Below, piece by piece: positions 14,627-33,957 of a DNA stretch of 64,000 bases. Location of the stretch: positions 248,001 through 312,000 of the forward strand of contig CALCUM010000003.1 of the NCBI GenBank assembly GCA_937907245.1, read 5' to 3'. Each line of letters opens with the position of its first letter. Position 1 is the first letter of the stretch. The position numbers were made by a program, and so were the translations under genes. This stretch comes from an uncultured Rhodobiaceae bacterium (GTDB taxonomy: Bacteria > Pseudomonadota > Alphaproteobacteria > RS24). The notes beneath the pieces are model-generated. The model saw nothing but the letters and a program-made list of their open reading frames with translations. It ran no database searches and had not been told where the DNA came from.

Positions 14627-14651
14627 CCTAATCTTAAAACCAAGCTACAGG

Positions 14652-16427: not shown

Positions 16428-16437
16428 GACTTTCTCC

Positions 16438-16602: not shown

Positions 16603-17879
16603 TAGAAATTCCTCCGTAGCCAGTTTCCGAGCCAGCCGAACGCGCCAGCAGCACGCCCTTCCTTCAGCACAGCATCGGCATGATTGCGCCCGGCATAGGT
16701 CAACAGACCCGCACAGGCAGAAAACGCAGGCCCTGTTGCACTTTCGGGCAGGCCTGTCAGGCGCATGGGAGATCCCAATCGTGCCTGTTTTTCTAAAATA
16801 GTATGCGCCAGTTCGCGCGCGCCGTTAAGCTGCGCAGCGCCCCCCGTCAACACCACGCGTCCGCCTGCCATATTGGCAAAGCCGCTTTGGGTTAACTTGG
16901 TTTGAATCATCTCAAAGGTTTCCTCTAAGCGCGGGCGAATAATCTTGGTCAGCTCACTGCGCGGAAGCGTTTGGTGGTCGCCGCCCATAACCGGCACCTC
17001 AAACTGCTCGCGCTCACCGCTTGGGGTGGCCAAAGCACTGCCGTAAAGCGTTTTGATGCGTTCTGCCGTGGTCATGGAAACATTTAGACCTTGCGCAATA
17101 TCGGTTGTGATATGGCGCCCACCAACGGGCACAACACAAGTAAATATGACATCCCCTTGGTGAAACACGCTGGCACTTGTGGTTCCTGCGCCCATATCTA
17201 GGTGCAGCACACCCAAATCAATCTCATCTTGCATCAGGGTAGACAGCGCGCTGGCATAAGGCGTCACCACTAATTTTTCACATCTCAAATGGCACTGCTC
17301 GATGCAAGTTAGCAAATTACGAGCGGGGCCCGCAGGTATCGCCACCATGTGCATAGTGACTTTCAACTTCTCGCCCTGCATGCCGCGCGGGTCGACGATG
17401 CCGTAATGATCGTCAATGCCGTAGCCAACAGGGATGGCATGAAGAATTTCCGTATCGGCCGACCAAAAGTCTTCATGCGCCCCGCGCAAGGCCATGGCCA
17501 TATGTTCTTGCGTCACTTTTTGCCCAAGCAAAGGCACATCGGCTTCTACCATTCGGCTGGTCAATAGACCGGACGATACGCCGATAACCACATCGCGCAC
17601 TTCCAAGCCGGCCATGCGTTCGGCGGCATGTACGGCAGCCCGGATACTGTCTTCCGCCGCCCGCATATCCACCACTTGCCCAGCGACCACGCCTTCTGAA
17701 ACGTGATGGCCAAGACCTGAAATTCTTACCAAACCACTTTGCCCTGAACCATCAACGCTATGCTCGCCAATCAGGCAGGCGACCTTGGCCGTGCCTACAT
17801 CGAGAGCCGCAATGACCCCACGACGCAACGGCATAGAGGTGCGCCGGTCGAATTGAGCGATGTTCAGGGGTCGATTCAC
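16602..17879 (-). CDS. ftsA: Cell division protein FtsA
   Basis: 425 aa actin-like ATPase that tethers FtsZ filaments to the membrane and recruits late division proteins. Phosphate-1 loop (AALDVGTAKVACLIGE), the SHS2-containing 1C insertion, phosphate-2 region (LHLDMGAGTTSASVF) and adenosine motif (GRVVLTGGAAQLNG) are in order. The C-terminus FGWLGNWLRRNF is the expected amphipathic membrane-targeting helix. The start overlaps the ftsQ stop by 4 nt (ATGA), and the stop overlaps the start of the 54-codon frame by one base. Confidence 0.96.
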   Translation of the reverse strand: MNRPLNIAQFDRRTSMPLRRGVIAALDVGTAKVACLIGEHSVDGSGQSGLVRISGLGHHVSEGVVAGQVVDMRAAEDSIRAAVHAAERMAGLEVRDVVIGVSSGLLTSRMVEADVPLLGQKVTQEHMAMALRGAHEDFWSADTEILHAIPVGYGIDDHYGIVDPRGMQGEKLKVTMHMVAIPAGPARNLLTCIEQCHLRCEKLVVTPYASALSTLMQDEIDLGVLHLDMGAGTTSASVFHQGDVIFTCVVPVGGRHITTDIAQGLNVSMTTAERIKTLYGSALATPSGEREQFEVPVMGGDHQTLPRSELTKIIRPRLEETFEMIQTKLTQSGFANMAGGRVVLTGGAAQLNGARELAHTILEKQARLGSPMRLTGLPESATGPAFSACAGLLTYAGRNHADAVLKEGRAAGAFGWLGNWLRRNF

Positions 17880-18784
17880 GAAGTCACCTTTGCACTATTG
17901 GCTTTGGGGGGCAGAGTTTTGCTAGAGCGTTTCGACTCGGGACGCAAGAGAACCCGATCCGGCAAGCGCAAATCAATGGCTTGGTTTTCAACCGCCAGAA
18001 TGCGGCGATCTTTTTCCAATTGCATGAGGCGGTTTAAGGCGCCTTCAATATTGCCCTCTGGCAACAACACTTTGCCGCCATGGTCGAGGCGAACCGTCCA
18101 GCGGCGCCCTCCCGTCCAATGGGCTGCCACCATCCGATTGCGCAGCACCGGATAGGCTTTCAATTGATCCATCAAATCACTGGCCCGCAACGTAGACCCC
18201 TCGCCAGAGAAAGTCGGCAAGTGCTCAAAGGCGCGCAAATGCTGGCGCGTAATCGCCACACCATTTCTATCAATCAGCGACTTGTGACGGTCATCTTGAT
18301 ACAGCGCAAAAGGCTCGCGCTCCGTTAGCTTCACGTGCAGAATATTGGGCAAGCGCCGCAGAACAACCGCTTGTTTGACCCAAGGCAGAGCTTCAATGCG
18401 GGCATGCATTTCGTCGAGGTCGAGGGCAAAAATAGCGCCACCTTGTTGCGCATCAATGGCGCTCAAAAGGTCTGCGGCTTGCGTCCGCTTTCTGCCTTCC
18501 ACGGTAATATCATTAATTTCAAAGCCCATGGCTCTGGTGACCGCATGGGTTTTCTCGCGCACTATTTCAGCGGCGGGGGTAAGCATATCAAAACGGAAAA
18601 CACTGGCCACAACAGCCGCGCAAACCAGCGCCAAACTGGCCAACCGAAGTTTGCGGCCCGACCATAAAACCCGCAAGCCAATGGCCATAAGGTTCAGCGG
18701 AGTAACCAGAATGGAGATAAGGGTATCGCTGATACGATTTTTTAAGCTCGGCTTAGGTGGTTTCGTTTGTTTTACCGCTGGCAT
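17876..18784 (-). CDS. ftsQ: Cell division protein FtsQ
   Basis: About 302 aa bitopic membrane protein of the divisome. It has a cytoplasmic N-terminus, one transmembrane segment at roughly 45-65 (LRLASLALVCAAVVASVF), a periplasmic POTRA domain (EINDITVEGRKRT...LPWVKQAVVLRRLPNILHVKLTEREPFALYQ) and the C-terminal beta domain. The ATG at 18784 has GGAGGA about 7 nt upstream and is preferred over the ATG at 18805, which would add seven residues. It overlaps the end of ddlB and the start of ftsA. Confidence 0.94.
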   Translation of the reverse strand: MPAVKQTKPPKPSLKNRISDTLISILVTPLNLMAIGLRVLWSGRKLRLASLALVCAAVVASVFRFDMLTPAAEIVREKTHAVTRAMGFEINDITVEGRKRTQAADLLSAIDAQQGGAIFALDLDEMHARIEALPWVKQAVVLRRLPNILHVKLTEREPFALYQDDRHKSLIDRNGVAITRQHLRAFEHLPTFSGEGSTLRASDLMDQLKAYPVLRNRMVAAHWTGGRRWTVRLDHGGKVLLPEGNIEGALNRLMQLEKDRRILAVENQAIDLRLPDRVLLRPESKRSSKTLPPKANSAKVTS

Positions 18785-19686
18785 GAGGCATCCTCCACAA
18801 TCCATTGAACTAAATCGGCAAAGCTTATGCCTCTATGAGCGGCCATTTCTGGTACCAAAGAGAGCGGCGTCATGCCGGGTTGGGTGTTAATTTCTAAAAG
18901 GGCAAGTTGGTTCTTGTCCGCATCGAAGCGGAAGTCGGCTCGGCTAATCCCGCGACAACCAAGGGCGATGTGCGCGGCTAGACTTATCTCTTGAATTTGG
19001 CTCGCCAAAGCATCGGGGATATCGGCTGGCAAATCATGGCGGGATCCGCCCTCTTCATATTTAGCGCGATAATCATACCAGCCATTGCTCGGCACAATTT
19101 CCATCACGTCGAGGCCTTGCCCACCCATGACGGCACAAGTTAATTCGCGCCCCGCCACATAGGCCTCCACCATGGCCATGCCGTCGAAAGCCCACCCCGC
19201 TTCGGTTAAGCAATCGGGCACCGCATCCGAGTCGTCGACCACAATCTCAATTCCCACGCTAGAGCCTTGATTAACCGGCTTTACAACATAAGGCGGCTGC
19301 ATAGGATGCCCTTGCACGCGGCCCTTTTCGACCAAAATAGAGGCGGCGATAGGCAGATCCATGGCGGCAAATATTTGTTTGGACAAATGCTTATCCATCG
19401 CCAAAGCCGAGGCGCGGACGCCAGAGTGGGTATAGGGAATTTGCAAGACCTCTAATAGTCCCTGCACTTCGCCATCTTCGCCCCCGACACCGTGCAGCGC
19501 GTTGAAGCAGATATCTGGTTTTACTTCGGCCAATTGTTGGTCGAGCGCGCGGGTGGCATCTATTTCGGTGACGCGGTAGCCAAGCTCGCGCAAAGCGGCC
19601 GCGCATTGCGCGCCGGAAATTAAGCTAACCTCGCGTTCAGGAGACCAGCCACCCATCAAAACGCCGATATGTTTTGCGTCGCTCAT
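18772..19686 (-). CDS. ddlB: D-alanine--D-alanine ligase
   Basis: 304 aa ATP-grasp enzyme making the D-Ala-D-Ala dipeptide for MurF. The N-terminal motif GVLMGGWSPEREVSLISG, the GVGGEDGEVQGLLE loop, the Ser-containing active-site segment PVNQGSSVGIEIV and the Mg-binding end LLEINTQPGMTPLSLVP are all present. Length matches DdlB. It overlaps murB by 4 nt upstream and ftsQ downstream, so it is read as part of the mur-fts run. Confidence 0.97.
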   Translation of the reverse strand: MSDAKHIGVLMGGWSPEREVSLISGAQCAAALRELGYRVTEIDATRALDQQLAEVKPDICFNALHGVGGEDGEVQGLLEVLQIPYTHSGVRASALAMDKHLSKQIFAAMDLPIAASILVEKGRVQGHPMQPPYVVKPVNQGSSVGIEIVVDDSDAVPDCLTEAGWAFDGMAMVEAYVAGRELTCAVMGGQGLDVMEIVPSNGWYDYRAKYEEGGSRHDLPADIPDALASQIQEISLAAHIALGCRGISRADFRFDADKNQLALLEINTQPGMTPLSLVPEMAAHRGISFADLVQWIVEDASCQR

Positions 19687-20615
19687 ACAGCCTCCCCGAT
19701 GCGTTTGATTTCCCAGTGCAAATCTTCGCCGCTAGTTTGCGCTACGAGGGCACGAACTTGCTCGCCCAAAGTTTCCAAATCGGCGGCGCTGGCCTGGCCA
19801 TGATTGATCATAAAGTTGCAATGCAACTCAGACATTTGCGCATCGCCAACTTGCAAGCCACGGGCGCCAGCAGCATCGATGAGCTTCCATGCCTTAGGGC
19901 CTTGCGGGTTGGCACCGCCTGGATTTTTGAAAGTCGAGCCGCCCGTGCGCGATTTTATCGGCTGAGTTGCTTCGCGTTTTGCAGAAATTTCATCCATCGC
20001 GGCCATAATCGTTGGCTGGTCGCCGGGGGTCGCTTCAAAGCGCGCGCCTGTGTAGACCAAAAATTCTGAGTAGCCGTTATGGCGATAGCTTAATTGCAAG
20101 TCAGCGGCGGAGAAGACATGCGTCTTGCCAGCTCTATCCAAGGCTTCCACCTCGACCAAAACATCGCTGGTCTCGCCGCCATAGGCGCCTGCGTTCATAG
20201 CAATCGCGCCGCCAATAGCGCCTGGAATGCCGCGATAAAACTCTAAGCCAGACAATGATAAGTCGGCCGCGGCACGCGCCAGCTTCACATCCAAAGTGGC
20301 CGCACCGGCTGAAATTTGTGTGTCTGAGATTGGCTTAACTTGGCCAAAGGCCGCGCCAAGACGAAGCACCACACCGCGCACGCCGCCGTCTCGTACCAAT
20401 GTGTTGGAGCCTGCGCCCAAAATATGCAGTGGCACGTCATGCGATAGCTCGGCCAAAAACACCGATAGATCGTCAGCGTCAGCCGGCATAAACACGACAT
20501 CCGCCGTGCCTCCAACACGGAACCAACACAAATCAGCCAACGCCACATCGCGCAGATACTTGCCACGCACTTCTGGCAGGGGCCAATCTTGCATCTGGGT
20601 TTGGAGGCTTTGCAT
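19683..20615 (-). CDS. murB: UDP-N-acetylenolpyruvoylglucosamine reductase MurB
   Basis: 310 aa FAD/NADPH enzyme converting UDP-GlcNAc-enolpyruvate to UDP-MurNAc. Flavin-binding motifs ILGAGSNTLVRDGG and YRGIPGAIGGAIAMNAGAYGGE are visible. The catalytic serine lies in RTGGSTFKNP, and HCNFMINHGQASAADLE is near the C-terminus. The arrangement fits type II MurB, lacking the extra type I region. Start overlaps the murC stop (TAATG) with GGAGG upstream; stop overlaps the ddlB start by 4 nt. Confidence 0.97.
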   Translation of the reverse strand: MQSLQTQMQDWPLPEVRGKYLRDVALADLCWFRVGGTADVVFMPADADDLSVFLAELSHDVPLHILGAGSNTLVRDGGVRGVVLRLGAAFGQVKPISDTQISAGAATLDVKLARAAADLSLSGLEFYRGIPGAIGGAIAMNAGAYGGETSDVLVEVEALDRAGKTHVFSAADLQLSYRHNGYSEFLVYTGARFEATPGDQPTIMAAMDEISAKREATQPIKSRTGGSTFKNPGGANPQGPKAWKLIDAAGARGLQVGDAQMSELHCNFMINHGQASAADLETLGEQVRALVAQTSGEDLHWEIKRIGEAV

Positions 20616-22042
20616 TAGATTTTGCCTCCTAGTTTTTCGGCCGTCGCATAGGCCATGGATGAGATGGAGCCTGCGCCCATGAAAATCACAACATCTTCGG
20701 CTTGGATTTCTTTGGCTAAATTATCGGTCAATTTATCATTGGTCTCGACGTGGATAGCGTGGCGGTGGCCATGTGCGCGCAAGCCTTGCACCAATGCGGC
20801 ACTATGAAAGCCATCAATCGGCGCCTCTCCAGCTTCAAACACAGGCGTGACCAAAACCGTATCGGCACCGTTCATGCTGGAGCAAAAGCCTTCGAATAAA
20901 TCTCGTAAGCGGCTATAGCGATGCGGCTGCATAACCGCAATCACACGGCCTTTGCTGACCGCACGTGCGCTTTCCAGAACCGCTTCAATCTCTACAGGAT
21001 GATGGGCGTAATCGTCGAAAAGGCGGATGTTCTTATCGAGCGTGGCAACCGGTGTGAAGCGGCGTTTCACCCCGCCAAACCCGGCCAAGCCTTTGCGAAT
21101 GCTCCCCTCATCACTACCCACTTCTATGGCGGCGGCAATGGCGGCCAAGGCGTTTTGCAAATTATGTTTACCGGCCATTGGCAAAGACAAGTCACGCAAA
21201 TGTTTTTGCGTATCGCTGCGCCGGTCGCGCCATAGCACATCGAAATATTGGGTTAGGCCGTCTTCGCGAATATCGACCGCGCGGACATCGGCTTGCTCGC
21301 CCAGACCATACGTAATCAGGCGGCGGTCGGTCACACGGCCGACGAGGCTTTGCACCTCAGGATGGTCAAGGCACACAATGCCGACCCCGTAAAAAGGAAT
21401 GTTTTGAATATAGCGATCGAAGGCGGCCCGTAAGCCATCGAAGTCGCCGTAATGCTCCAGATGCTCGGGGTCAATATTGGTGACAATGGCAATGGTCGTC
21501 GGCAGGCGTACGAAAGTGCCATCGCTCTCATCGGCCTCTACCACCATCCACTCGCCTTGGCCAAGGCGCGCATTGGTGCCATAGGCATTTATAATGCCAC
21601 CGTTCATTACCGTTGGATCCAGCGAGGCGGCATCGAGAAGAGCTGCCGTTAAAGAGGTGGTGGTGGTTTTGCCATGCGTGCCAGCAATCGTGATGCAAGG
21701 CTTCAGGCGCATCAGCTCAGCCAACATCTCGGCGCGGCGCACAACAGGAATATGGGCGGCCCGCGCAGCTTGCACTTCAGGATTATCGTCAGGCACGGCA
21801 GATGAAATGGTCACGACGCCGGCCTTTTCAACATGGGCGGCTGCGTGGCCCTGCATAATTTTAATGCCCATGGCGGCGAGGCGTTCGGTATTAGCATTGG
21901 AGCCCATATCGCTACCCTGCACCTCATAGCCCATAAGATGCATCACTTCAGCAATGCCGCTCATGCCGATGCCGCCGATACCGACAATATGCACACGGCC
22001 AAAGGGGCGCAGACCCGCAGGTAAAGACATAGGTCTATCCAT
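20615..22042 (-). CDS. murC: UDP-N-acetylmuramate--L-alanine ligase MurC
   Basis: 475 aa Mur ligase adding L-Ala, the first stem-peptide residue, to UDP-MurNAc. The N-terminal UDP-binding loop is HIVGIGGIGMSGIAEV. The P-loop is IAGTHGKTTTTS at about 115-126. The central EADESDGTF and the C-terminal motif DDYAHHPVEIEA typical of MurC follow. The start overlaps the end of murG by 8 nt with AGGAGG upstream; an internal ATG at residue 5 is possible. The stop is coupled to murB. Confidence 0.97.
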   Translation of the reverse strand: MDRPMSLPAGLRPFGRVHIVGIGGIGMSGIAEVMHLMGYEVQGSDMGSNANTERLAAMGIKIMQGHAAAHVEKAGVVTISSAVPDDNPEVQAARAAHIPVVRRAEMLAELMRLKPCITIAGTHGKTTTTSLTAALLDAASLDPTVMNGGIINAYGTNARLGQGEWMVVEADESDGTFVRLPTTIAIVTNIDPEHLEHYGDFDGLRAAFDRYIQNIPFYGVGIVCLDHPEVQSLVGRVTDRRLITYGLGEQADVRAVDIREDGLTQYFDVLWRDRRSDTQKHLRDLSLPMAGKHNLQNALAAIAAAIEVGSDEGSIRKGLAGFGGVKRRFTPVATLDKNIRLFDDYAHHPVEIEAVLESARAVSKGRVIAVMQPHRYSRLRDLFEGFCSSMNGADTVLVTPVFEAGEAPIDGFHSAALVQGLRAHGHRHAIHVETNDKLTDNLAKEIQAEDVVIFMGAGSISSMAYATAEKLGGKI

Positions 22043-23213
22043 GGCTGGCCTCCTGCTGAGCTTGGGTGCTGCTGGAGCTTGGCAGATCGATTTGAACGGG
22101 CATACCAGAAGCGAGGCATTGCGCGTAACGCGTTAAGCGACCGGCTGCATCTAGCTCCCCAAAAGCCGAAGCCTGGCGCGACACGCCACTTAGGGCTTCT
22201 GGGTCATCCATCCATTGGGTCAATATTTCGGCTAAATAGTCTGGCGTGAACTCAGGCTGACGCGTCATTAAAGCCCCGCCCATTTCACATAGCTCTAAGC
22301 CGTTCATCGCTTGGTCTTGGTCTAGCGAGCCGGGTAGCGGCACAAGTAAAGAAGGCGTGCCAAGCGCGGCAAGCTCGGCAACCGTTGAGGCGCCACCACG
22401 TGAAATCACCATATGGGCACGCCGCATACGGGCTGGCAAATCGGGGAAGAATTCGCGCAACTCAGCATGGACAGCTAGCTTTCCATAAGCCTCTAAAGTC
22501 TCTTGCATGTCGGCTTTGCGGACTTGATGAACAATCCGCAGACGATTTTGCAGGCTCTTTGATAGTTTTTCTACCGCTTGGGGTAGCACGGCGGAAAACA
22601 CGCTGGCACCCTGGCTACCACCGAATACCAAAAGCTCGAAAACACCTGATTTACCGGGTTCCATGTAGCTATTTTCGGCCGCATTCAACACCGCGGCCCG
22701 CAAAGGGTTGCCTGTACGGCGCAAGCGCTCAGACGCATTGGCAGGCACTTTTTGGGTCTGACCGTAACTTGTCGCCACCGATGCACCCCAGCGAGCGGCC
22801 AGACGATTGACCCGACCCAGAACAGCATTTTGTTCATGCACCAAAACCGGTAACCCAGACCAAATGGCGGCCATGACAGGCCCAAAAGAGGGGTAGCCTC
22901 CAAAGCCCACAACCACTTTCGGCTTCAACCGACGAACCAAGTATAAAGACGAAAAAATGGATATCATCAAAGTGAGAAAACGAAACGGCAGCGCGATAAT
23001 ACCGCCGTTGAACACGGTGGCGGCCGGTAACTTATGGTGATGCATTTGCGTCAATTGCGGCAGATAAACAAGGCCGCGCGCATCGGTCGCCAGATGCACC
23101 TCATAGCCCGACGCTTTCAATTGCTCGGCCAATACACTGGCGGGGAACATATGCCCCCCTGTGCCGCCAGCCGCGAGCAAAGCAATCGGTTTTTGAGGGG
23201 ATGATTTATTCAT
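22035..23213 (-). CDS. murG: Lipid II synthase MurG
   Basis: 392 aa peripheral membrane GT28 glycosyltransferase that adds GlcNAc to lipid I. The glycine-rich loop LLAAGGTGGHMFPA near the N-terminus, the second G-loop LVFGGSQGASVF and the UDP-sugar motif SRGGASTVAELAALGTPSLLVPLP identify it. It is slightly longer than E. coli MurG because of a polar Ser/Gln-rich C-terminal tail. It overlaps ftsW by 4 nt and murC by 8 nt. Confidence 0.96.
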   Translation of the reverse strand: MNKSSPQKPIALLAAGGTGGHMFPASVLAEQLKASGYEVHLATDARGLVYLPQLTQMHHHKLPAATVFNGGIIALPFRFLTLMISIFSSLYLVRRLKPKVVVGFGGYPSFGPVMAAIWSGLPVLVHEQNAVLGRVNRLAARWGASVATSYGQTQKVPANASERLRRTGNPLRAAVLNAAENSYMEPGKSGVFELLVFGGSQGASVFSAVLPQAVEKLSKSLQNRLRIVHQVRKADMQETLEAYGKLAVHAELREFFPDLPARMRRAHMVISRGGASTVAELAALGTPSLLVPLPGSLDQDQAMNGLELCEMGGALMTRQPEFTPDYLAEILTQWMDDPEALSGVSRQASAFGELDAAGRLTRYAQCLASGMPVQIDLPSSSSTQAQQEASHG

Positions 23214-24385
23214 GTGCGACCTCCCGCAATGAGGTGGATGCCACTTGCTGGCAAAGTGCGAAGGCGCATATCTGAACTGGCCCGACGGCGCATTAACCCC
23301 ACCAACATGCCCATGGTAATAGCTGACGCAAGAAGCGAAGAGCCGCCATAAGAAATGAAAGGCAAGGTCATGCCCTTGGAAGGCATGAGATTAAGATTAA
23401 CTGCCAAATTGATAATCGCTTGCAGACCGAATAAGCAAATAAGCCCAGAAGCGGCCAATTGCACCCAATGCTCACGTTCCTCACGCAAGGCCCAAAGCGC
23501 GCGCCAGACCAAAAAGGCAAAAGTGAAAACAATGAAGCAACCAATAATCAAGCCGCCTTCTTCCGCCGCCACGGCAAACACATAATCGGCATGGGCGTCT
23601 GGCAAGATAGATTTCACGCGGCCATCGCCCGGCCCAACGCCGGTAATGCCGCCCGAGCGAATGGCATCCATGGCTTTATCTACCTGGTAAGTGTCACCCG
23701 TCGATGGGTCGAGGAAACGATCGATACGACTTTGGAAGTAGCCATAAGTTGAATAAACATATGTGCCTGCCAATAGGCCAAGACCTGCCATGGCACCGAT
23801 TAATTTCATTGAGCCACCCGAAAGAAAGAAAAGACACATCCACACCAGACCCAGCAAGATAGTCTGACCAAAGTCTGGCTGCATGGCCAATAGAACGCAG
23901 GTGCCCAGCAATAGCGCCACCGCCAGCCACATATCATAGGCCACGAATTTGGCTCTTTGACGGGCAAATAGCCAAGCGGTAACCACCACGAAAGCAGGTT
24001 TTAAAACTTCTGACGGCTGCACAGACAAGCCACCGATTAACAACCACCGACTGGCACCCTTTACAGTGACGCCGAAAAATAGCGTGGCGATGACGCCGCC
24101 GAGTGCGCCCACCAACAAAAGAAGCGCGAAATATTTAATCGCTTTGGGCGACAGCATCGACACGCCAATAAACACACAGCCCGCCAGCGAAAGGAAAGCG
24201 AATTGCTTATTGGCAAAATAATAAATCGATTTACCGATGGTCTGCGCCACCGCCGGACTGGCCGCAAAGGCCATGAGATACCCAAGACCGATGAGCGCCA
24301 TGACACCTAAGACCATTGGGCGGTCGACGGTCCACCACCACTGCGACAGCGGGCTACGATTGGTGCGAGCGAACATACGGCTCAT
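23210..24385 (-). CDS. ftsW: Peptidoglycan glycosyltransferase FtsW
   Basis: 391 aa SEDS-family polytopic membrane protein (about ten transmembrane helices) that polymerises septal glycan strands with FtsI. Diagnostic segments are VQPSEVLKPAFVVVTAWLFA, GDGRVKSILPDAHADYVFAVAAEEGG (with the conserved SEDS Asp region) and LPFISYGGSSLLAS. Its place between murD and murG is the classic dcw position, which favours FtsW over RodA. It overlaps both neighbours by 4 nt. Confidence 0.95.
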   Translation of the reverse strand: MSRMFARTNRSPLSQWWWTVDRPMVLGVMALIGLGYLMAFAASPAVAQTIGKSIYYFANKQFAFLSLAGCVFIGVSMLSPKAIKYFALLLLVGALGGVIATLFFGVTVKGASRWLLIGGLSVQPSEVLKPAFVVVTAWLFARQRAKFVAYDMWLAVALLLGTCVLLAMQPDFGQTILLGLVWMCLFFLSGGSMKLIGAMAGLGLLAGTYVYSTYGYFQSRIDRFLDPSTGDTYQVDKAMDAIRSGGITGVGPGDGRVKSILPDAHADYVFAVAAEEGGLIIGCFIVFTFAFLVWRALWALREEREHWVQLAASGLICLFGLQAIINLAVNLNLMPSKGMTLPFISYGGSSLLASAITMGMLVGLMRRRASSDMRLRTLPASGIHLIAGGRT

Positions 24386-25779
24386 GCGGCACCCCCTGCT
24401 TCTTGCGCGCTCACCCAGCTAGCCACAGCGGCTTGAAAGGCGACCCCGCGCGCTTCGAAATCTTCGAACTGGTCAAAGGACGCGCAGGCCGGCGATAGTA
24501 AAATTGTGGCATGGGCAAGGGCATCGGCTTGCGCTTGATTGGCTGCTTGGGTAAGCGCCTTATCCATCGTGTACGATATCTCAACCGGTATTTTTCCAGA
24601 CAAACTTTGAGCAAACCCATCCGCCGCTTCGCCGATGAGGAAGGCCGCGCGGACATTGCTGAATTGGGTTTCCAAACTCGAGAGGCCGCCCGCTTTGGCG
24701 ACGCCACCTGCAATCCAATAAATATTATCAAAGGCTGCCAAAGCATGGCGTGTCGCCTCGGCGTTGGTGGCTTTGCTGTCGTTCACAAAAGTTAGGGCCC
24801 CATGGCGCGCGATCGGTTGCAAGCGATGCGACATGCCAGCAAAGCTCTTAAAACTGGCAGCCATGACATCGGCGCTTATTCCCAAGCCCAATCCAATAGC
24901 CATTGCAGCAGCTGCGTTCTGCCCATTGTGGGCGCCGCGCAAGGCAAGGCAATCTTGCAAAACCACAGGCTCGGCTTGACCATAGTGCAAGCTGGCATCG
25001 GCAAAATATATATCGCCTTGCGTGTGCGTGCTGGAAATCGTAATGCATTTTTCGTGCGGGTGACGCTCAAACATTTCGCGGCTTGGCGCATCATCCATGC
25101 CAATAACGCGAAGCGATTGGCATTTATCATTCTCAAAAAGAGCTTCTTTGGCCCGCGCATAGCCCGCCATATCGCCATGCCTATCGAGGTGGTCTGGCGT
25201 TAGGTTTAACATCACACCCATATCGCAATGCAACCGGCGGTTAAGGTCGAGCTGGTAGGAAGATAACTCTAGGACATAAATTGTGTTTGGCGCCGCCGCG
25301 TCTGGCAGCGGCAATTGCAGAACTGGCGTGCCGATATTGCCGCCCATATGAACAGGCAGGCCAGCCGTTTGCAGCATGTGAGTAACCAGCGCCGTGGTCG
25401 TCGATTTTCCATTGGTGCCCGTAATGCCGATGAGCGTCGCCTTATCGCGCAGACCCGACGCCTCAAGCGCCATGGAGAATAAATCCATATCGCCCAAAAC
25501 AGCACAAGCCACAGCCTTTGCCGCCGCCACAACTGGGTGCGGGGCCGGATGGGTAAGCGGCACGCCAGGGCTTACAATTAATTGGGCAGGGCTGCCAAAA
25601 TCATCGGTTAAATTTCGCAAAACGGCCCCGAGTTTTTCAGCCTGCTGACGCGGCTCCGCGCGATCATCCCATGCCACAACTTGATTTCCCGCAGCCACTA
25701 GCGACGCCACACAAGCCAAGCCTGAGCGGCCCAGTCCGAAGACGGCGGTTTCACCAGTGAGTTTGGGAAGCTGCATCAT
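24382..25779 (-). CDS. murD: UDP-N-acetylmuramoylalanine--D-glutamate ligase MurD
   Basis: 465 aa Mur ligase adding D-Glu. The N-terminal Rossmann loop is VFGLGRSGLACVASL. The P-loop is IGITGTNGKSTTTALVTHML, followed by LELSSYQLD and the C-terminal FVNDSKATNAEATRHAL motif typical of MurD. The first two codons are both ATG, so the exact start is ambiguous by one residue. It lies 5 nt after mraY and overlaps ftsW by 4 nt. Confidence 0.96.
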   Translation of the reverse strand: MMQLPKLTGETAVFGLGRSGLACVASLVAAGNQVVAWDDRAEPRQQAEKLGAVLRNLTDDFGSPAQLIVSPGVPLTHPAPHPVVAAAKAVACAVLGDMDLFSMALEASGLRDKATLIGITGTNGKSTTTALVTHMLQTAGLPVHMGGNIGTPVLQLPLPDAAAPNTIYVLELSSYQLDLNRRLHCDMGVMLNLTPDHLDRHGDMAGYARAKEALFENDKCQSLRVIGMDDAPSREMFERHPHEKCITISSTHTQGDIYFADASLHYGQAEPVVLQDCLALRGAHNGQNAAAAMAIGLGLGISADVMAASFKSFAGMSHRLQPIARHGALTFVNDSKATNAEATRHALAAFDNIYWIAGGVAKAGGLSSLETQFSNVRAAFLIGEAADGFAQSLSGKIPVEISYTMDKALTQAANQAQADALAHATILLSPACASFDQFEDFEARGVAFQAAVASWVSAQEAGGAA

Positions 25780-25784
25780 AGACC

Positions 25785-26876
25785 CTACCTCAGCTTCAAC
25801 GTAGCCAGCCCAACGAGGGCAAGGATGACGGAAATAATCCAGAAGCGAATGACAATTGTCGGCTCTGCCCAGCCGCGTTGCTCAAAATGATGATGCAAAG
25901 GCGCCATGGCGAACACACGCTTGCCGGTTAGTTTGAACGAAGCCACTTGCACAATCACCGAGACAGCTTCCAACACAAACAAGCCGCCGATAATGGCCAG
26001 AACCAGTTCGTGTTTGGTAGCCACGGCGATAGACCCAAGCGCGCCGCCCAAAGCCAGCGAGCCCGTATCGCCCATGAAAACGGCGGCCGGCGGCGCATTA
26101 TACCAAAGAAAGCCTAAGCCTGAGCCGATGAGCGCGGCGCAAAATACCGCCAGCTCGCCCGTGCCAGGCACGTAGTGGACTTGCAGGTAATTCGCAAAAA
26201 TCGCATTCCCGACCAGATAAGCGATAAAGCCAAAACTGGCCGCCGCAATCATCGTTGGCACAATTGCTAAACCGTCTAGGCCATCGGTAAGATTGACTGA
26301 GTTCGAGGCACCAACAATCACAATCAGGCCCGCAAAAAGATAGAGCGGAAGGCCGAAGGGCAAAAGCACATCTTTAAAGAAGGGAATGGCGTAACTGGTC
26401 GCCAGGGGCTCCGGCAAATAATGGCTAATGGCCAGAACCGTACAAATAGCAATAATCGATTCAAATATTAATTTCAAACGACCCGGCACGCCGGCGCTAG
26501 ATCCGCCGCGCAGTTTTAAATAATCATCGGCAAAACCAATAATGCCAAAGCCCGTTGTGGTCAGCAGCACAATCCACAAAAATGGATTGGTTAAATTTCC
26601 CCAAATCAAAGTTGACCCTAAAGCGCCCAATAAGATAAGCAAACCGCCCATGGTTGGGGTTCCGATTTTAGTTACCAAATGCGATTGCGGGCCATCTTCG
26701 CGTATCGGCTGACCTTTGCCTTGACGCGCGCGCAGCGCACCAATGACCCATGGGCCCAGCAAGAAGGTGATGAGCAAAGAGGTCATTACCGCGCCACCCG
26801 CCCGAAACGTAATGTAATTGAACAGATTAGCGCCAGGCACTTGTTCGTTAAACTGGAGCATGAATTCATAGAGCAT
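25785..26876 (-). CDS. mraY: Phospho-N-acetylmuramoyl-pentapeptide transferase MraY
   Basis: 363 aa integral membrane enzyme with about ten helices that transfers phospho-MurNAc-pentapeptide to undecaprenyl phosphate, forming lipid I. Motifs [21 protein letters not shown] (catalytic Asp pair), [24 protein letters not shown] and [12 protein letters not shown] are all intact. Start ATG overlaps the murF stop in TAATG. Length matches the family. Confidence 0.97.
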
Positions 26877-28318
26877 TATCCGACCCTCGCCTGTTTTATC
26901 TGTGCCGCAGAACTTGCCAGCAAGGCGTCGACCACTTTTCCCATACCACTGGAATTGGAGCCCTTCACCATCACCACATCATTGGCGCGTAAATCTCGGT
27001 GTAAAATTTCCATAATTTCGTCTGTCGTGCCGACATGCGGCCCCGTGCGGCCTGGCGGCAGATGATTGTGCAAATGCACCATCAAATCTCCACAGGTCAG
27101 CACCAAATCAATATCGGCTTGCTCGATGTTTTCTGCCAAGCTCGCGTGCAGGGCTGGTGCGTCTTTGCCCAGCTCGGCCATATCGCCCAAGACGGCAACG
27201 CGGCGACCACGGCCCAGACGTGGCGCCAGACCCAAAGTATTTAAAGCTGCCGCCATCGACGTTGGATTGGCGTTATAACTCTCGTCGATGAGGGTTATTT
27301 GAGCCTCGGCATCGCCGATAGCATAACGCCGACCGCGCCCCGATAGGCCTTCATTGTCTGCCAGCGACAAAGCCGCCAGGGCTAAATCAGCCCCTGCATT
27401 TTGTACCGCCGCCAAAACAGCCAGACTGTTGGCGACATGGTGCGCGCCGGGTGTGCCAATTTTATAAATCACTTCTTGTCCCAGAATATGAGCGGTCACA
27501 CAGCTGCAGGCTTCGTGCAATTTCACTTGCGCTGTAAAGGCTTGCGCTTGCGCGTTACCCTCGGCAGAGAAATCCATGATGCGGGCCTGGCTCGCGCCTT
27601 GTTTCAACTCGTCATAATACGCATTATCGCGAGGCAAAATAGCGACCCCGCCTTCGACCAAACCACTGAATATCTCGGCCTTGGCGCGCGCCAGAGCTGT
27701 CATGTTATCGAAGTTTTCAATATGCGCCGTGCCAATGGTTGTGACGATGGCGCACTGCGGGCGCACCATATCCACCAAATCTGTTAGCTCGCCAGCGTGG
27801 TTCATGCCCAGTTCAAACACCGCAAAATCAGCCTCGGCCGATAGCCGTGCCAGACTGAGAGGCACACCAATATGATTGTTGAACGAACGCTCGGACGCAT
27901 GCACAGAGCCGCTTTTTGCCAGCGCTGCAGACAGTGTTTCTTTGACGCTGGTTTTACCGACACTGCCCGTTACCGCAATAATATGGGCTTGGCTGCGCTC
28001 GCGAGCCGCACGGCCCAAAGCCTCTAGCGCCGCCAACACATCCGACACGGGTAGCAAAACCGCTTTGGCTGGCAAACTCTCGCTGGCAAAGTCTGGCCGC
28101 ACAAAAGCTGCCGCGGCGCCAGCTTCAAAAGCCGCCTCGACATACGCATGCCCATCGACATGCTCTCCCGGCAGAGCCACGAAAATATCACCTGGCTTCA
28201 AATCACGCGTGTCTATACTCACGCCATTGGCCACCCAATCGGTCGGCACGTCTTGGCCAACCAGATGCGTTGCCACTGCCGCTATCACTTGCGAGCCCTT
28301 CCAGAGAGGATTAGCCAT
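26876..28318 (-). CDS. murF: UDP-MurNAc-tripeptide--D-alanyl-D-alanine ligase MurF
   Basis: 480 aa Mur ligase that adds the D-Ala-D-Ala dipeptide supplied by DdlB. The N-terminal MurF/HPr-kinase-like domain ([19 protein letters not shown]), P-loop [15 protein letters not shown], and [10 protein letters not shown] and [15 protein letters not shown] segments identify MurF rather than MurE. AAAGGGGG precedes the start, which overlaps murE by 8 nt. It is coupled to mraY downstream. Confidence 0.97.
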
Positions 28319-29789
28319 GCTGGCCCCCTTTCGCAGAAAGATAGGATTGCGCCACTATGGCATCGTCAAACGGCAAAATTGTGTCGCCGATAATCTGACC
28401 GCTCTCATGGCCTTTGCCAGCCAGCAGAACAATATCATCGCTTTGCGCGGCGTTAATAATGGCACCAATGGCTTCGCCGCGATCGCCAATTTCTTGGGCT
28501 TTGGGGCAAGCGGCAAGAATGGCGGCACGAATGCTCGCGGCTTTTTCTTGGCGCGGGTTATCATCGGTCACGAAAATGCTATCCGCTTTGGCGGCAGCAA
28601 CCTTGCCCATTTCTGGGCGCTTGCCAGCATCGCGATTTCCACCACACCCAAACAACACCGAAAGATTACCAGACGCCGGAAGATGGCCGCGCAAGGCGTC
28701 CAGAGCCTTGTCGAGCGCATCGGGCGTGTGAGCATAATCGACGTAAACACTGGCGCCATTTTGCGAGCGTCCAACAAATTGCATACGGCCACGCGGCGCT
28801 TGCAAATGCGCGCAGGCCGAGAATAATTCTTTGTCTTGCAGGCCAAAGGCTTGCGCCATGCCCAAAGCTAACGCCAGGTTCTCGGTTTGAAAATCTCCAA
28901 TAAGCGGAACCGCAAGGCTTTGCGACTGGCCGTTCAAGGTAACCTCGATCTGTAAGCCCGTGGCCGTGCGCGCCTCGACTTGGACAAAAACACTATCCTC
29001 GGGGCGACCGACCATCACAGGGCTACGACCATAAGTTTCGCACACAGCCTGCAAGCGTTGACCAGAGACATGACTGCCCACAATCACAGCCGTGCCGGTC
29101 TCGCTCAGCAACTCCGTGAACAAACGTTGCTTGGCCGCTTCATAGGCTTCCGGCGTATCATGATAATCCAAATGATCGCGCGATAGATTGGTAAATCCCG
29201 CCACTTCGACCCGCACGCCATCCATACGATGCTGCGCCAAGCCATGACTGGAAGCCTCCATCGCCAAATGCGTGACGCCATGCGCGCTCAAATCTCGTAA
29301 GGCCGCATGCAAGCGAACGGGGTCTGGGGTTGTGTGTTGCAAGGGCTCAAAATAACCATCCGCTTCCACCCCCAGAGTACCCATGGCCGCAACCTTATGG
29401 CCTTGGGCGGCAAGAAGTTGGCGCAAGAAACTGACCGTCGAGGTTTTACCATTAGTGCCGGTAATGCAGCCAATATGGGCGGGTTGAAATTCAAAGAAAC
29501 GGGCGGCCATATGGGCCAAATCACGATGTGGATTATCACTCGTTACGAAAGCCACATCTGCGTGCAAGGGTTGGGCCAGCAAAGGCTCGCTGGCCAATAC
29601 CGCCGTCGCCCCATTTTCAATCGCTTGGCTGATGAACGCCTGACCATCGACTTTTGTGCCCGGCAGCGCGGCAAATAAATATCCCGGCTGCACCGTGCGG
29701 CTATCGGCGCTGAGGCCGCGCACGTCTGGTGAGGGCACGCCACCTTTGCCAGTTAGGTTTGAGTTGCGGCTTAATTCATCGAGGCGCAT
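28311..29789 (-). CDS. murE: UDP-MurNAc-L-Ala-D-Glu--meso-diaminopimelate ligase MurE
   Basis: 492 aa Mur ligase adding the third stem residue. SADSRTVQPGYLFAALPG and P-loop CITGTNGKTSTVSFLRQ are followed by MEASSHGLAQHRMDGV and VDYAHTPDALDKAL. The DNPR motif (FVTDDNPRQEKA) is the family signature for meso-diaminopimelate instead of lysine, as expected for a Gram-negative wall. GAGGAGG lies before the ATG, and the start overlaps the ftsI end by 14 nt. Confidence 0.97.
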   Translation of the reverse strand: MRLDELSRNSNLTGKGGVPSPDVRGLSADSRTVQPGYLFAALPGTKVDGQAFISQAIENGATAVLASEPLLAQPLHADVAFVTSDNPHRDLAHMAARFFEFQPAHIGCITGTNGKTSTVSFLRQLLAAQGHKVAAMGTLGVEADGYFEPLQHTTPDPVRLHAALRDLSAHGVTHLAMEASSHGLAQHRMDGVRVEVAGFTNLSRDHLDYHDTPEAYEAAKQRLFTELLSETGTAVIVGSHVSGQRLQAVCETYGRSPVMVGRPEDSVFVQVEARTATGLQIEVTLNGQSQSLAVPLIGDFQTENLALALGMAQAFGLQDKELFSACAHLQAPRGRMQFVGRSQNGASVYVDYAHTPDALDKALDALRGHLPASGNLSVLFGCGGNRDAGKRPEMGKVAAAKADSIFVTDDNPRQEKAASIRAAILAACPKAQEIGDRGEAIGAIINAAQSDDIVLLAGKGHESGQIIGDTILPFDDAIVAQSYLSAKGGQHG

Positions 29790-31512
29790 AAGCCACCTCC
29801 TCGACAGATTGATGTGTCGGTTTCACAGCCGCTTGCTCTGCAGGAACTTCGGCACGCGGCAAGACACCCAAAAGACTGGCCGTGCGACGCACAATCTCGC
29901 CCGCCGCTGGTGCCGCATTCCAACCAGCTGAATTGAGCCCATAAGTTTCCGCATGACCTTGCGGCTCATCCAGCATGACCAGCATCGCGTAGCGTGGCGC
30001 GCGAGCTGGAAATGCGCCTAAAAACGAAGTCCTTAAGGCCTCTTTATTATACCCGCCCACGATGTGCTTTTCGGCTGTACCGGTTTTGCCCAAAATTTGA
30101 TACCCAGGCACCTCGGCTTGGCGCGCCGTGCCATGGGTCACGACCGAGCGCATCATCCGGCGCAACGAGCGGCTGGTTTCCGCCGCGATAATTCGCTGGC
30201 CCACTGGCAGGCCAACTTTGCGCAAGCTCGGCTCGTACAGAACACCGCCATTGACCATCGCCGCGCCTGCCATAACAGCAGCGAGGGGCGAGACCGAAAA
30301 ACTGTAACCAAAGGAAGACGTCGCGCGCTCAATGTCCGTCCAACGGGTTGGCACGATAGGCTCGGCACTTTCAAGCAACTCGAAAGGCACAGAGTCTAAG
30401 AAACCAAGTTTGCCAAAAAATTCGTAATGCACATCTGCCGGTACCCGCATAGCCATTTGAACGGCACCAATATTCGACGAGTGAATGATAACCTCATCTA
30501 TCGATAAAATGCGCTCTTGGCCATGGTCATCTTCAAAGACCTTGCGGCCAACTTTTATCGGCTCGCGGGTGTCAAAGCCCTCGTCCTCCGCCACTAGACC
30601 TGTGTCTAAGGCCATGGCTGCCGTGAATACTTTGAAAATAGAACCGAGCTCATAAACGCCCGAAGTCATCCGATTGAAATGCGGTTCGCGGCCCTGCGCC
30701 ATTGCGTCATTGGCATCAAAATCAGGCAGCGACACCAATGAGATAACTTCGCCCGAATGCACATCCACCATAATGGCGCCTGCCGCTTTGGCTTGATATT
30801 TGACCATCGCTTCTTGTAAAACGTCACGCACATTATGTTGCACGCGCACGTCTAGGCTGCTTTCAAACACGCCTTCAAAACCCTCGTCTTCGATCAACCG
30901 ATCGAGATATAACTCGAGCCCTAAAAGGCCGCGCATGTCGGAGCTGGTGAACCCAACGCTATGGGCCATCACATGACCCGTCGGATAGACCCGACTGCTA
31001 GCGCGGGTCAGTTTCAAGGCCGGATCGCCAAAAGCCAAAGTGGCTTGCTTCTGGGCTGGCGTAAGGCCTGTTTCCAATTCAACATAGCGATCTTTACCCG
31101 ACATCAAACGCGCGGCACGAGCTTGGTTTAAGTCAGGCAAAATCTGTTTCAAGCGCGCCGCCATTTGCGGGCCATCGTCAATCATCGCAACATCTGCGCC
31201 CAGCGTTACGGTAGAGATTTGCGTCGCCAAGACCACGCCATTGCGATCTAAAATAGTGGGGCGCACCATTTGTTTTTGTTTCTGCGCGCCAGCCTGCCAC
31301 GCGGGCTGGTTTTCCAAAACCGTGAGCTGCACCAAGCGCCCAGCTAAAACACCAAACACGATGACGAAGCAGGTAAGCGCCAAACGCAAGCGATTGCGGG
31401 TCACCTCGACGGCATGCTCGGACAAATCTCCTGGACCACCGCTCAAGCGTCCGCCCAAGACGGCCGCCCAATCGCGCCCTGCCGCAACGACGGGAAGTTT
31501 AGCGCGGCTCAT
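29776..31512 (-). CDS. ftsI: Septal peptidoglycan transpeptidase FtsI (PBP3)
   Basis: About 578 aa class B penicillin-binding protein that cross-links septal wall with FtsW. It has one N-terminal transmembrane anchor (LALTCFVIVFGVLAGRLVQL), a pedestal domain with RPTILDRNGVVLA, and a transpeptidase domain. The active site is SIFK (about 291-294), SSN (HSSNIGAV) and KTGT (LGKTGTAEK). The ATG at 31512 has GGGAGG 6 nt upstream and is preferred to the ATG at 31527. It overlaps ftsL by 14 nt. Confidence 0.96.
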   Translation of the reverse strand: MSRAKLPVVAAGRDWAAVLGGRLSGGPGDLSEHAVEVTRNRLRLALTCFVIVFGVLAGRLVQLTVLENQPAWQAGAQKQKQMVRPTILDRNGVVLATQISTVTLGADVAMIDDGPQMAARLKQILPDLNQARAARLMSGKDRYVELETGLTPAQKQATLAFGDPALKLTRASSRVYPTGHVMAHSVGFTSSDMRGLLGLELYLDRLIEDEGFEGVFESSLDVRVQHNVRDVLQEAMVKYQAKAAGAIMVDVHSGEVISLVSLPDFDANDAMAQGREPHFNRMTSGVYELGSIFKVFTAAMALDTGLVAEDEGFDTREPIKVGRKVFEDDHGQERILSIDEVIIHSSNIGAVQMAMRVPADVHYEFFGKLGFLDSVPFELLESAEPIVPTRWTDIERATSSFGYSFSVSPLAAVMAGAAMVNGGVLYEPSLRKVGLPVGQRIIAAETSRSLRRMMRSVVTHGTARQAEVPGYQILGKTGTAEKHIVGGYNKEALRTSFLGAFPARAPRYAMLVMLDEPQGHAETYGLNSAGWNAAPAAGEIVRRTASLLGVLPRAEVPAEQAAVKPTHQSVEEVAYAPR

Positions 31513-31834
31513 GAGCGCCTCCCGCATTGACGTTGCTGGGCACGAGCATCACAGGAATGGTCTGCGTTTCCTGCGTGCGCATATCTTCGACTTGTGACAA
31601 GCGCAGATGGCCTAATTGCAAATAATGGCGCGATAGCAATTGCAAACGACGCGGGTCGTTCAGGCTGCTCCATTCGGCGCGCAAGGTGCGCTGGCGGTCC
31701 AACTCGCGATTAATTTTTTGCTCCACCTGCCGCACGCCGCGCGCCTCGGCTTCTGCCGAATAGCGAATGTGGTAAAGCGCGGCAATGCACAAGACCAGCA
31801 AAAGACACAAAGATATATTTATCCAGCGTATCAT
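31499..31834 (-). CDS. ftsL: Cell division protein FtsL
   Basis: 111 aa bitopic membrane protein. One transmembrane helix (ISLCLLLVLCIAALYHI) is followed by a short periplasmic coiled coil (EARGVRQVEQKINRELDRQRTLRAEWSSLNDPRRLQ). This is the FtsL layout, which with FtsB and FtsQ activates FtsWI. Sequence conservation in this family is low. The position between rsmH and ftsI and the 4-nt overlap with rsmH support the call. Confidence 0.9.
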   Translation of the reverse strand: MIRWINISLCLLLVLCIAALYHIRYSAEAEARGVRQVEQKINRELDRQRTLRAEWSSLNDPRRLQLLSRHYLQLGHLRLSQVEDMRTQETQTIPVMLVPSNVNAGGAHEPR

Positions 31835-32874
31835 CCGCGCACCTCAATTTGAGGGGCGCGGCGGGGCATTAAATCACCACTTTCGGGAAAGGCGGGCGCC
31901 TTTGTGCGAAGCGCCACCCGCAGACGCGCCGAACGCGAGCGCGGATTATCTTCAATCTCGGATGCACTCGCCTTGATGGTGCGCTTTACAGGTTCGGCAA
32001 AACTTGGTGGCGCCATTTCCACATCTGGCTGATGGCGCGATGGACGCCCTGAGCGACCTGTGCGCGGGCTGAAAAATTGCTTCACCATGCGGTCTTCTAG
32101 CGAATGAAAGGTTACAACCGCCAAACGACCGCCCGGCTTGAGGATTTGCTCCGCCGCTTGCAGACCGCGCAATAGCTCGCCCAATTCATCATTGAGATAA
32201 ATCCGAATGGCCTGAAACGTGCGCGTGGCCGGATGCGATTTACCAAAGCGTGGCGCGCCCAAAACCGAAATAACTACATCCACCAAATCTTGGGTGGTGG
32301 CAAAAGGCGTCTCGGCGCGGCGAGCAACAATGGCCTTGGTAATGGCGCGGGCGCGTTTCTCTTCGCCATAAACATGCAAGATATCGCTCAGCAAATCTGG
32401 CTCAGCTTGGTTTAATAATTCCGCAGCACTTTGCCCGCTCTGGCTCATCCGCATATCCAGCGGCCCATCGCGCATGAACGAAAATCCACGTTCAGCCTCA
32501 TCTAACTGCATGGAAGAAACGCCCAAATCAAGCGTCACGCCATCCACTTGCGGCTGGCCGGCCTCTGGCAACAGGCGATCCATATCGCCAAAACAGCCAG
32601 AGAGGTAAATTAGGCGCGAACCGAATTCAGCAGCCAGCGCATCGGCATGTTTTTTTGTGTCTGGGTCACGGTCGATTGCCACCACAGTGCAATCCGCCGC
32701 TTGCAATAAAGCTTTGGTGTAACCGCCCGCCCCGAAAGTGCCATCGACATGGGTTTCATTGGCTTGGGGTGCCAGAGCGCCCACTACTTCGTGCAAGAGT
32801 ACAGAAATATGGGGAGCGGAAACCGGGGGCACGCTAGCTTGCTGCCTATTGAACACGTCACCCCCGCTACTCAT
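31831..32874 (-). CDS. rsmH: 16S rRNA (cytosine1402-N4)-methyltransferase RsmH
   Basis: 347 aa SAM-dependent enzyme (MraW) that modifies C1402 in the ribosomal P site. Motifs HISVLLHEVVGAL, DGTFGAGGYTKALL, GVTLDLGVSSMQLDEAERGFSF and AVVTFHSLEDRMVKQFF are all present. It is the second gene of the dcw run, overlapping mraZ by 4 nt and ftsL by 4 nt. The C-terminus carries about 30 extra basic/proline residues. Confidence 0.96.
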   Translation of the reverse strand: MSSGGDVFNRQQASVPPVSAPHISVLLHEVVGALAPQANETHVDGTFGAGGYTKALLQAADCTVVAIDRDPDTKKHADALAAEFGSRLIYLSGCFGDMDRLLPEAGQPQVDGVTLDLGVSSMQLDEAERGFSFMRDGPLDMRMSQSGQSAAELLNQAEPDLLSDILHVYGEEKRARAITKAIVARRAETPFATTQDLVDVVISVLGAPRFGKSHPATRTFQAIRIYLNDELGELLRGLQAAEQILKPGGRLAVVTFHSLEDRMVKQFFSPRTGRSGRPSRHQPDVEMAPPSFAEPVKRTIKASASEIEDNPRSRSARLRVALRTKAPAFPESGDLMPRRAPQIEVRG

Positions 32875-33395
32875 TGCTTGCCCTCACCCGGCGGCGCGGG
32901 AGGCGGCGATGAAAGCGATCGCAACAACCCCCTTTGTTGCAGCGCCATAGCGCGTGCTTTCGATCTAAAGTCGGCGTAACTGGCTGGATTCCAAATCTGG
33001 AATTTGGTTCCAAGACCCACAAACATCAGCTCTTTTTCAACGCCCGCATGCGCCAATAAAGGCGCCGGCAAAGAAACCCGACCATCCGCATCAAACGTTA
33101 AGTGATGGCTATCGGCAAACAAAGAGGCGGCCAAAGCATCACGCTCTTCGGTGAATAAATCGAGGCGCTCGACCATGGCGCCAATGTCGCTCATCAGCGA
33201 CTGCCCGCCGCCTTCAATCGCCGCTTCGGTGAAAGACGGATAAACAAAAATACCATGCGGCCCATCATGGGGCGCGGCTGGGCCAGAATTTTGCGAATTG
33301 TTTTGGGCGATAATCGCCGAACGGAAGACAGACGGAACCGAGACGCGACCCTTGGCGTCTATCTTGCTCGTGACTGTAGACATGAACGTGGCCAT
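32871..33395 (-). CDS. mraZ: Transcriptional regulator MraZ
   Basis: 174 aa double AbrB-fold DNA-binding protein that autoregulates the dcw cluster. The first repeat is SKIDAKGRVSVPSVFR and the second HLTFDADGRVSLPAPLLAHAG, followed by FVGLGTKFQIWNP. A Pro-rich C-terminal tail (SLSSPPPAPPGEGKQ) makes it longer than the usual 140-150 residues. AAGGAGG 5-7 nt upstream fixes the ATG at 33395. Its likely operator, four TGGGN boxes, lies 70-105 bp upstream. Confidence 0.96.
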   Translation of the reverse strand: MATFMSTVTSKIDAKGRVSVPSVFRSAIIAQNNSQNSGPAAPHDGPHGIFVYPSFTEAAIEGGGQSLMSDIGAMVERLDLFTEERDALAASLFADSHHLTFDADGRVSLPAPLLAHAGVEKELMFVGLGTKFQIWNPASYADFRSKARAMALQQRGLLRSLSSPPPAPPGEGKQ

Positions 33396-33465
33396 GTCGG
33401 CTTCCTCCTTCGTTTGTCAGCGCTTCGGGCGCGACACTCCCACCCCTTGTTTGCGTGGTCTTATA

Positions 33466-33500
33466 TGGGATTACTTGGGATAGCATGGGCAAGTATGGGT
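33466..33500. repeat. MraZ-box array: four TGGGN repeats with 5-nt spacers
   Basis: TGGGA, TGGGA, TGGGC and TGGGT start at 33466, 33476, 33486 and 33496, exactly 10 bp apart on the + strand. A degenerate TGGAA at 33506 continues the phase. TGGGN repeats with 5-nt gaps are the published MraZ operator pattern. They overlap the predicted mraZ promoter, which fits autorepression of the division operon. The boxes read opposite to mraZ. Confidence 0.75.
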
Positions 33501-33505
33501 GTCAA
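33477..33505 (-). promoter_or_regulatory. Predicted dcw/mraZ promoter
   Basis: On the - strand a consensus -35 TTGACA (33500-33505) is followed by a 17-nt spacer and -10 TATCCC (33477-33482). A TGC just upstream of the -10 fits an extended -10. Transcription would start near 33470, giving a leader of about 75 nt before mraZ. The MraZ boxes cover the whole element. Confidence 0.55.
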
Positions 33506-33594
33506 TGGAATTTGGAGGGCATTTGCGCGCGCAAACGGGCAGATATGGGCAGGCCGATTGCCGATATCGCTACATGTTGTGGATTTTGAAAAAA

Positions 33595-33957
<363 letters not shown>

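Follow-up and report, generated by a model that had tools for sequence, protein, structure and literature searches.

A probable MraZ autoregulatory operator, inverted and merged with the mraZ core promoter in the form usual for Alphaproteobacteria

The region directly upstream of mraZ in the 64-kb stretch of DNA of a marine alphaproteobacterium analysed here (the window) carries what is most probably the autoregulatory operator of MraZ in its usual alphaproteobacterial form, that is, inverted with respect to the gene, merged with the core promoter and repressing by occlusion. We give this reading, in which binding and repression are the predicted parts, a probability of roughly four in five. 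Four boxes of the ATGGG type, spaced by 10 bp and read opposite to mraZ, would be merged with the core promoter; the 10-bp spacing puts one box on each helical turn and therefore all of them on one face of the DNA. One box would at the same time be part of the -10 element, the CCC of TGNTATCCC doubling as box letters, and the -35 element would lie between two boxes. An MraZ oligomer lying along the array face would cover about -40 to +5 and exclude RNA polymerase, and it is proposed that MraZ would therefore keep down the transcription of mraZ itself and of those dcw genes that this promoter serves. We infer MraZ binding, occlusion, repression and its reach along the operon from this arrangement, and likewise the tight autorepression of the whole division operon that an earlier note on this DNA had predicted.

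On the + strand of the window TGGG begins at exactly 33466, 33476, 33486 and 33496, so that the array of four units at exact 10-bp steps with a degenerate fifth at 33506, described in the earlier note, can be read directly. The corresponding 5-mers are TGGGA at 33466 and 33476, TGGGC at 33486, TGGGT at 33496 and TGGAA at 33506, and a TGGT stands at 33456. Followed in the direction of mraZ, which is encoded on the - strand, the + strand boxes comprise the degenerate box k-1 (TGGA, 33506..33509) just upstream of the -35 hexamer, box k0 (33496..33499) directly downstream of it, box k1 (33486..33489) within the -35/-10 spacer, box k2 (33476..33479), which gives the CCC of the -10 hexamer, box k3 (33466..33469) at the predicted transcription start, and the weak in-phase position k4 (TGGT, 33456..33459).

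From the frequencies of TGGG and CCCA, 3.7e-5 exact four-box patterns are expected in the window; there is one, at 33466. When up to two mismatches are allowed, the three-box pattern has 14 matches in the window, five of them within the array, and 100 shuffles gave 6.36 matches (sd 2.42, largest 14). Across the whole 1,804,735-base genome the exact three-box pattern is confined to the array, as two overlapping matches, and its reversed control gives none. The four-box pattern with up to three mismatches has 34 matches in the genome (20 forward and 14 reverse), of which the array is the single exact one, against four forward and two reverse matches of the control pattern. Five of the 34 overlap the mraZ array, with 0 to 2 mismatches at four places, and the best match outside it has two mismatches. 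A chance origin of the array is rejected on its uniqueness in the genome, on the expectation given above and on the conservation of period 10 in relatives. We also reject an MraZ regulon based on other exact arrays of this genome; weak extra sites are not rejected, as such arrays are commoner than those of the control pattern (34 vs 6 with up to three mismatches).

The TTGACA-17-TATCCC promoter that had been placed under the boxes is correct as letters on the mraZ strand, with TTGACA at 33505-33500 and TATCCC at 33482-33477, 17 bases apart. The -35 hexamer (33500..33505, - strand) is located in the spacer between boxes k-1 and k0. TATCCC is preceded by TGC, which makes an extended -10 (TGCTATCCC, 33477..33485, - strand) with the CCC common to box k2. 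The geometry of the -10 predicts a transcription start at 33470..33471 on the - strand and, with it, an mraZ leader of about 75 nt (74 computed); a Shine-Dalgarno-like AAGGAGG of mraZ is read directly at 33404..33410 on the same strand. A generic sigma-70 consensus scan of 33300-34100 reported no promoter; it demanded T at position 6, absent from TATCCC. The negative scan and the poor match of TATCCC to a sigma-70 -10 both tell against the preferred reading. A hexamer so far from consensus, and yet nearly fixed, might suggest that MraZ binds here but activates or fine-tunes the promoter, offsetting the weak -10. We consider this very unlikely: with the -35, the -10 and the predicted start all covered by the array, a bound protein would stand in the way of polymerase, and in E. 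coli and M. genitalium MraZ is a repressor of the cluster it belongs to, as reported in the available part of PMC8475190.

MraZ is a very widespread bacterial regulator, and in the window its gene (32871..33395, - strand, 174 aa) is the first of the dcw cluster. The product scores 70.5 bits against PF02381, with a cut-off of 23, which places it in the family, and it matches six NCBIfam MraZ models listed, all below their cut-offs (best NF001477, 139.8 vs 162). Two D-x-x-x-R motifs are intact in it, D13-A-K-G-R17 (D-x-K-G-R) and D102-A-D-G-R106 (D-x-x-G-R). This motif contacts DNA, and D13, K15, R17, D102 and R106 are found in 100% of the ungapped rows of 148 alphaproteobacterial and 71 other MraZ sequences. 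The best named protein matches come from PS1-clade, Rhodobiaceae and unplaced alphaproteobacterial MAGs (eight loci), and MraZ structures are present in the PDB (1n0e, 9sx6, 9qlg, 9qlr).

The rsmH (mraW) gene (31831..32874, - strand; PF01795 314.9 bits, TIGR00006 302.1 bits) overlaps mraZ by four bases, and ftsL (31499..31834, - strand) is recognised by NF049847 (72.1 bits, cut-off 50), with no Pfam match. The remaining dcw cluster (12975..31527, - strand), delineated by Pfam domains and ORFs, contains ftsI, murE, murF, mraY, murD, ftsW, murG, murC, murB, ddl, ftsQ, ftsA, ftsZ and lpxC, the individual Mur ligases being told apart from gene order. The next gene upstream of the operator, on the same strand as mraZ, is rnpB (RNase P RNA class A, 33595..33953, - strand, RF00010 338.6 bits). 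Of 20 class loci scanned, 8 likewise have rnpB upstream of mraZ, and in Pelagibacter the gene is listed between mraZ and ybjR in the accessible part of PMC2704228. Further along, a 1295-aa ORF on the - strand (36409-40296) looks by eye like an autotransporter-type surface protein.

The array was compared across Pseudomonadota. MraZ was found in 211 of the 299 genomes searched, class members included. The alphaproteobacterial sample consists of 148 loci, 23 from the bacterium's own family and 125 from the wider class, after 20 of 168 loci had been dropped: L002, L003 and L035-L040 as repeats, L004-L011 as named records matching genomes already included, L027, L091 and L139 for too little upstream sequence, and L168 as E. 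coli. From 198 class genomes with a match (3 of the 198 belong to the own family) 127 loci were taken, mostly by best MraZ score, and 125 of them had enough upstream sequence to be used. Together with the held-out set below, these picks cover all but 49 of the 195 matching class genomes outside the own family, and related genomes are counted individually in all class counts. A held-out set comprised 19 further loci from the same class list, one of which (L265) shares its genus with a training locus. Another 70 loci represent non-alphaproteobacterial Pseudomonadota, 30 from the MraZ search listing and 40 chosen to spread over families.

At least three CCCA, the box as it appears on the mraZ strand, recur at period 10 in 116 of the 148 alphaproteobacterial mraZ upstreams; at periods 7, 8, 9, 11, 12 and 13 the count is 0/148 each. 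A TGGG array on the mraZ strand is found in a single locus (L128, 1/148), which also has boxes in the usual orientation. When the shorter TGG core is followed instead, uninterrupted runs of at least three at period 10 lie opposite to mraZ in 15/23 own-family and 109/125 class loci and on the mraZ strand in 0/23 and 1/125, respectively. Such runs are absent at periods 8, 9, 11 and 12, except in one class locus each at 11 and 12. Neighbouring CCCA are 10 bp apart in 295 of 344 intervals and 20 bp apart in 31, a count that is partly circular because the loci were picked by a profile trained on such arrays.

That profile describes the composite element on the mraZ strand, [CCCA]-TTGACN-CCCA-N6-CCCA-TGNTAT-CCCA-N6-CCCA. 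It has 46 columns and was built from the 81 of 125 class loci that could be anchored by TTGAC with at least two boxes, each of these being scored without itself. With plain letter shuffles of 350 bases as the reference, for real stretches of up to 420 bases, the profile scores higher than any of 296 shuffles at 141 of the 148 loci (23/23 own-family and 118/125 class), and in the opposite orientation at no own-family locus and one class locus (1/148). Among the held-out loci, 16 of 19 score above the maximum of 380 shuffles, and none does in the opposite orientation. Seven of the 148 loci, all from the wider class, stay below the threshold, as do three of the 19 held-out loci, one of which has just 25 nt of upstream sequence. 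By eye, three of the seven, L106 (CCTAT), L059 and L080 (both CCATA), seem to have changed boxes at about 10-bp steps; their arrays look recoded, which makes them candidates for an MraZ with altered box choice.

The comparison in relatives that the earlier note had suggested finds the boxes conserved, contrary to the lack of conservation by which that note's claim would have been refuted, and the frequency of the profile turns the supposedly unusual strand and position into the norm of the class. For the same reason the layout is rejected as a peculiarity of the source genome. What stands of the operator layout claimed at the outset is a direct-repeat array over the mraZ core promoter on the opposite strand, unlike that of E. 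coli; what does not stand is the view of its strand, position and box number as unusual, since all three are, as far as sequence comparison can tell, the alphaproteobacterial norm.

The promoter letters are as regular as the boxes. A TTGACA-like site with at most one mismatch is located near the array in 103 of the 116 loci with at least three boxes, and in 93 of these 103 its offset from the boxes, taken modulo 10, is 3 or 4. In the 81 anchored class loci exact CCCA is found 57 times at k0, 70 at k1, 78 at k2, 48 at k3, 24 at k-1 and 0-4 times at positions further out; exact counts in anchored loci are raised, in the own family and the class alike, because anchoring takes the placement with most boxes. 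The own-family counts are 23/23 for k0, 20/23 for k1, 18/23 for k2 and 21/23 for k3. Box k-1 is exact in 5/23 own-family loci and within one mismatch in 16/23, the latter figure being 42/81 for the class. Position k4 is exact in 0/23 and within one mismatch in 13/23 own-family loci (1/81 and 5/81 in the class); being so rarely kept, it is probably no general box, and a general extra box at 33456 is rejected.

TGNTAT precedes box k2 in 74/81 anchored class loci and occurs in the neighbouring spacers in 3/81 and 1/81; it played no part in the choice of these loci. That this spacer and no other is fixed is what one would expect of a sequence common to promoter and operator. The -35/-10 spacer, derived from the TTGAC-to-box distance, is 17 in 55/81 and 18 in 26/81 class loci. 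Across the class, the putative -35 is thus located between boxes and the predicted extended -10 (TGNTATCCC) contains one box. Among the 148 loci, 90 have CCATGNTATCCCA; their predicted leaders span 29-234 nt, the start codons being profile-placed, and that of the window falls within this range at 74 nt. Published mraZ leaders of 38 nt in E. coli, up to 70 in Caulobacter, 170 in S. meliloti and 268 in R. sphaeroides (available text of PMC5089854) vary as widely, a likeness that is no direct test as the last three organisms are outside the named set.

Upstream of the array, an in-phase pair is seen at 33536 (CGGG) and 33546 (TGGG), the latter exactly 50 bp upstream of the box at 33496. TGGG at 33546 is exact in four of the 23 own-family loci (L001, L018, L019, L021), against an off-phase background of 20 in 1656 positions, and the pair (33536-33549) is possibly a clade-specific second MraZ site.

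With a TGG/GTG core repeated directly every 10 bp beside mraZ, the array has the layout of an MraZ operator, in a variant form: its boxes, being on the opposite strand, depart from the mraZ-strand, GTG-core pattern of non-alphaproteobacterial Pseudomonadota. The repeat layout speaks against the view that another regulator of division genes (CtrA, NtrX or an unknown one) uses these boxes instead of MraZ, to which we assign little chance: box core and period agree with those of MraZ operators in other groups, and mraZ lies next to the array. The patterns used in testing this view, TTAA-N7-TTAA, TTAACC and GANTC, are all absent from the 205 bases upstream of mraZ, and an exact NtrX-type GCAN9TGC is absent from the 3,195-base locus L001. 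In favour of the view, a CtrA motif is described at mraZ of S. meliloti in the available part of PMC3616915 and NtrX binding upstream of mraZ of R. sphaeroides in that of PMC7240162.

The letters of the array also form G3N7G3N7G3N7G3, a canonical G-quadruplex (G4) pattern that follows from the box period, and on the template strand its four GGG runs, separated by 7-base loops, might fold into a G4 that controls the promoter, with the MraZ boxes as a secondary matter. This pattern is found opposite to mraZ in 74/148 alphaproteobacterial upstreams (250 nt) and on the mraZ strand in 7/148; for S. aureus a G4 in the promoter region of mraZ, and for other bacteria G4 motifs in mraZ promoters, are reported in the accessible part of PMC11796246. 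However, half of the loci lack the pattern while 141/148 have the composite element, and a G4 would permit other loop lengths whereas the boxes hold to 10 bp, with 0/148 at six other periods. When boxes are chosen on TGG alone, the third G is present in just 422/528. Moreover, non-alphaproteobacteria keep the 10-bp period with GTGG/GTGT boxes (56/70) and show the G4 pattern in 1/70 on either strand. A G4 as the primary element is therefore highly improbable, and an operator read by MraZ remains the preferred interpretation.

The orientation of the boxes separates Alphaproteobacteria from the other Pseudomonadota. In 57 of the 70 non-alphaproteobacterial loci the 250 nt upstream contain an array of three or more boxes on the mraZ strand and no such array on the opposite strand; an array of three within 250 nt is absent from the other 13. 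With 350 nt, one locus of 71 (L212) has, besides an array on the mraZ strand, three TGGG boxes in a gapped array on the other strand. The neutral TGG core gives the same contrast, with 47/70 on the mraZ strand and 0 opposite. The alphaproteobacterial profile, promoter letters included, is found in 0/71 of these loci on the mraZ strand and in 4/71 reversed. The box itself differs as well: with boxes chosen on TGG alone, since motif-based choice shaped the result, the preceding base is A in 420/528 and G in 24/528 alphaproteobacterial boxes and G in 141/156 boxes of other Pseudomonadota.

A possible counterpart in the protein is MraZ residue 11 (window 33363-33365), two before D-x-K-G-R, which is K or R in 93% of the 148 alphaproteobacterial sequences, while 95% of the 71 others have N, S or T there; it is a candidate only, because many other MraZ columns also differ between the two groups. 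A tentative scenario, to which we would give somewhat less than even odds, is that at the root of Alphaproteobacteria the operator was re-founded in reversed orientation on the core promoter, with the box ATGGG in place of GTGG and a matching change in the recognition loop (K/R at residue 11 vs mostly N, S or T). The same bases would then serve as -10 and repressor box, and the MraZ proteins of both groups would no longer read each other's operators.

A direct-repeat MraZ operator has a direction; in the class-wide pattern this direction is reversed, one base of the box is different and the boxes have moved onto the promoter. Part swaps could ask if a ring-shaped repressor is sensitive to the polarity of its operator and what residues determine which box it prefers, and the composite element offers a simple signature for locating the first division promoter in Alphaproteobacteria. 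Among the literature matches listed, none reported in print an inversion across the class, a shift to the core promoter or a different box base, and no title or abstract start dealt with MraZ boxes in Alphaproteobacteria. The main text of PMC5089854, which deals with mraZ upstreams including those of Caulobacter and S. meliloti, contains no mention of an MraZ box or MraZ binding, of binding sites, repeats or TGGG.

The operator, its regulator and the box number are already known from other systems. In E. coli K-12 (mraZ1p), as in the window, TGGG boxes stand exactly 10 bp apart immediately before mraZ, within the dcw cluster. In E. coli, however, the mraZ strand carries three boxes, each GTGGG, starting 43, 33 and 23 bases ahead of the start codon, whereas the four boxes of the window lie on the opposite strand at -104 to -71, extend over the -35 to about +1 and are preceded by A/T. 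The E. coli boxes are downstream of the -10 by eye, as also in the available part of PMC7761207; with the 38-nt leader given in that of PMC5089854, one box would stand just before +1 and two after it. The Mollicutes have direct repeats AAAGTG[T/G] in units of (AAAGTGKN3), as far as PMC8475190 and PMC5282649 were available, with a GTG core in place of the ATGGG of the window; the former source, in the same part, has the repressor role shown in M. genitalium. The closest parallel in number is B. cenocepacia (PmraBc), whose first dcw promoter has four repeats with a 10-bp period, each of 7 nt with 3-nt spacers, on a fragment bound by its MraZ, according to the accessible part of PMC7761207. Four boxes are accordingly not new, but the B. 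cenocepacia array is located downstream of the -10 and over the start site (same source), unlike that of the window, which is merged with the core promoter.
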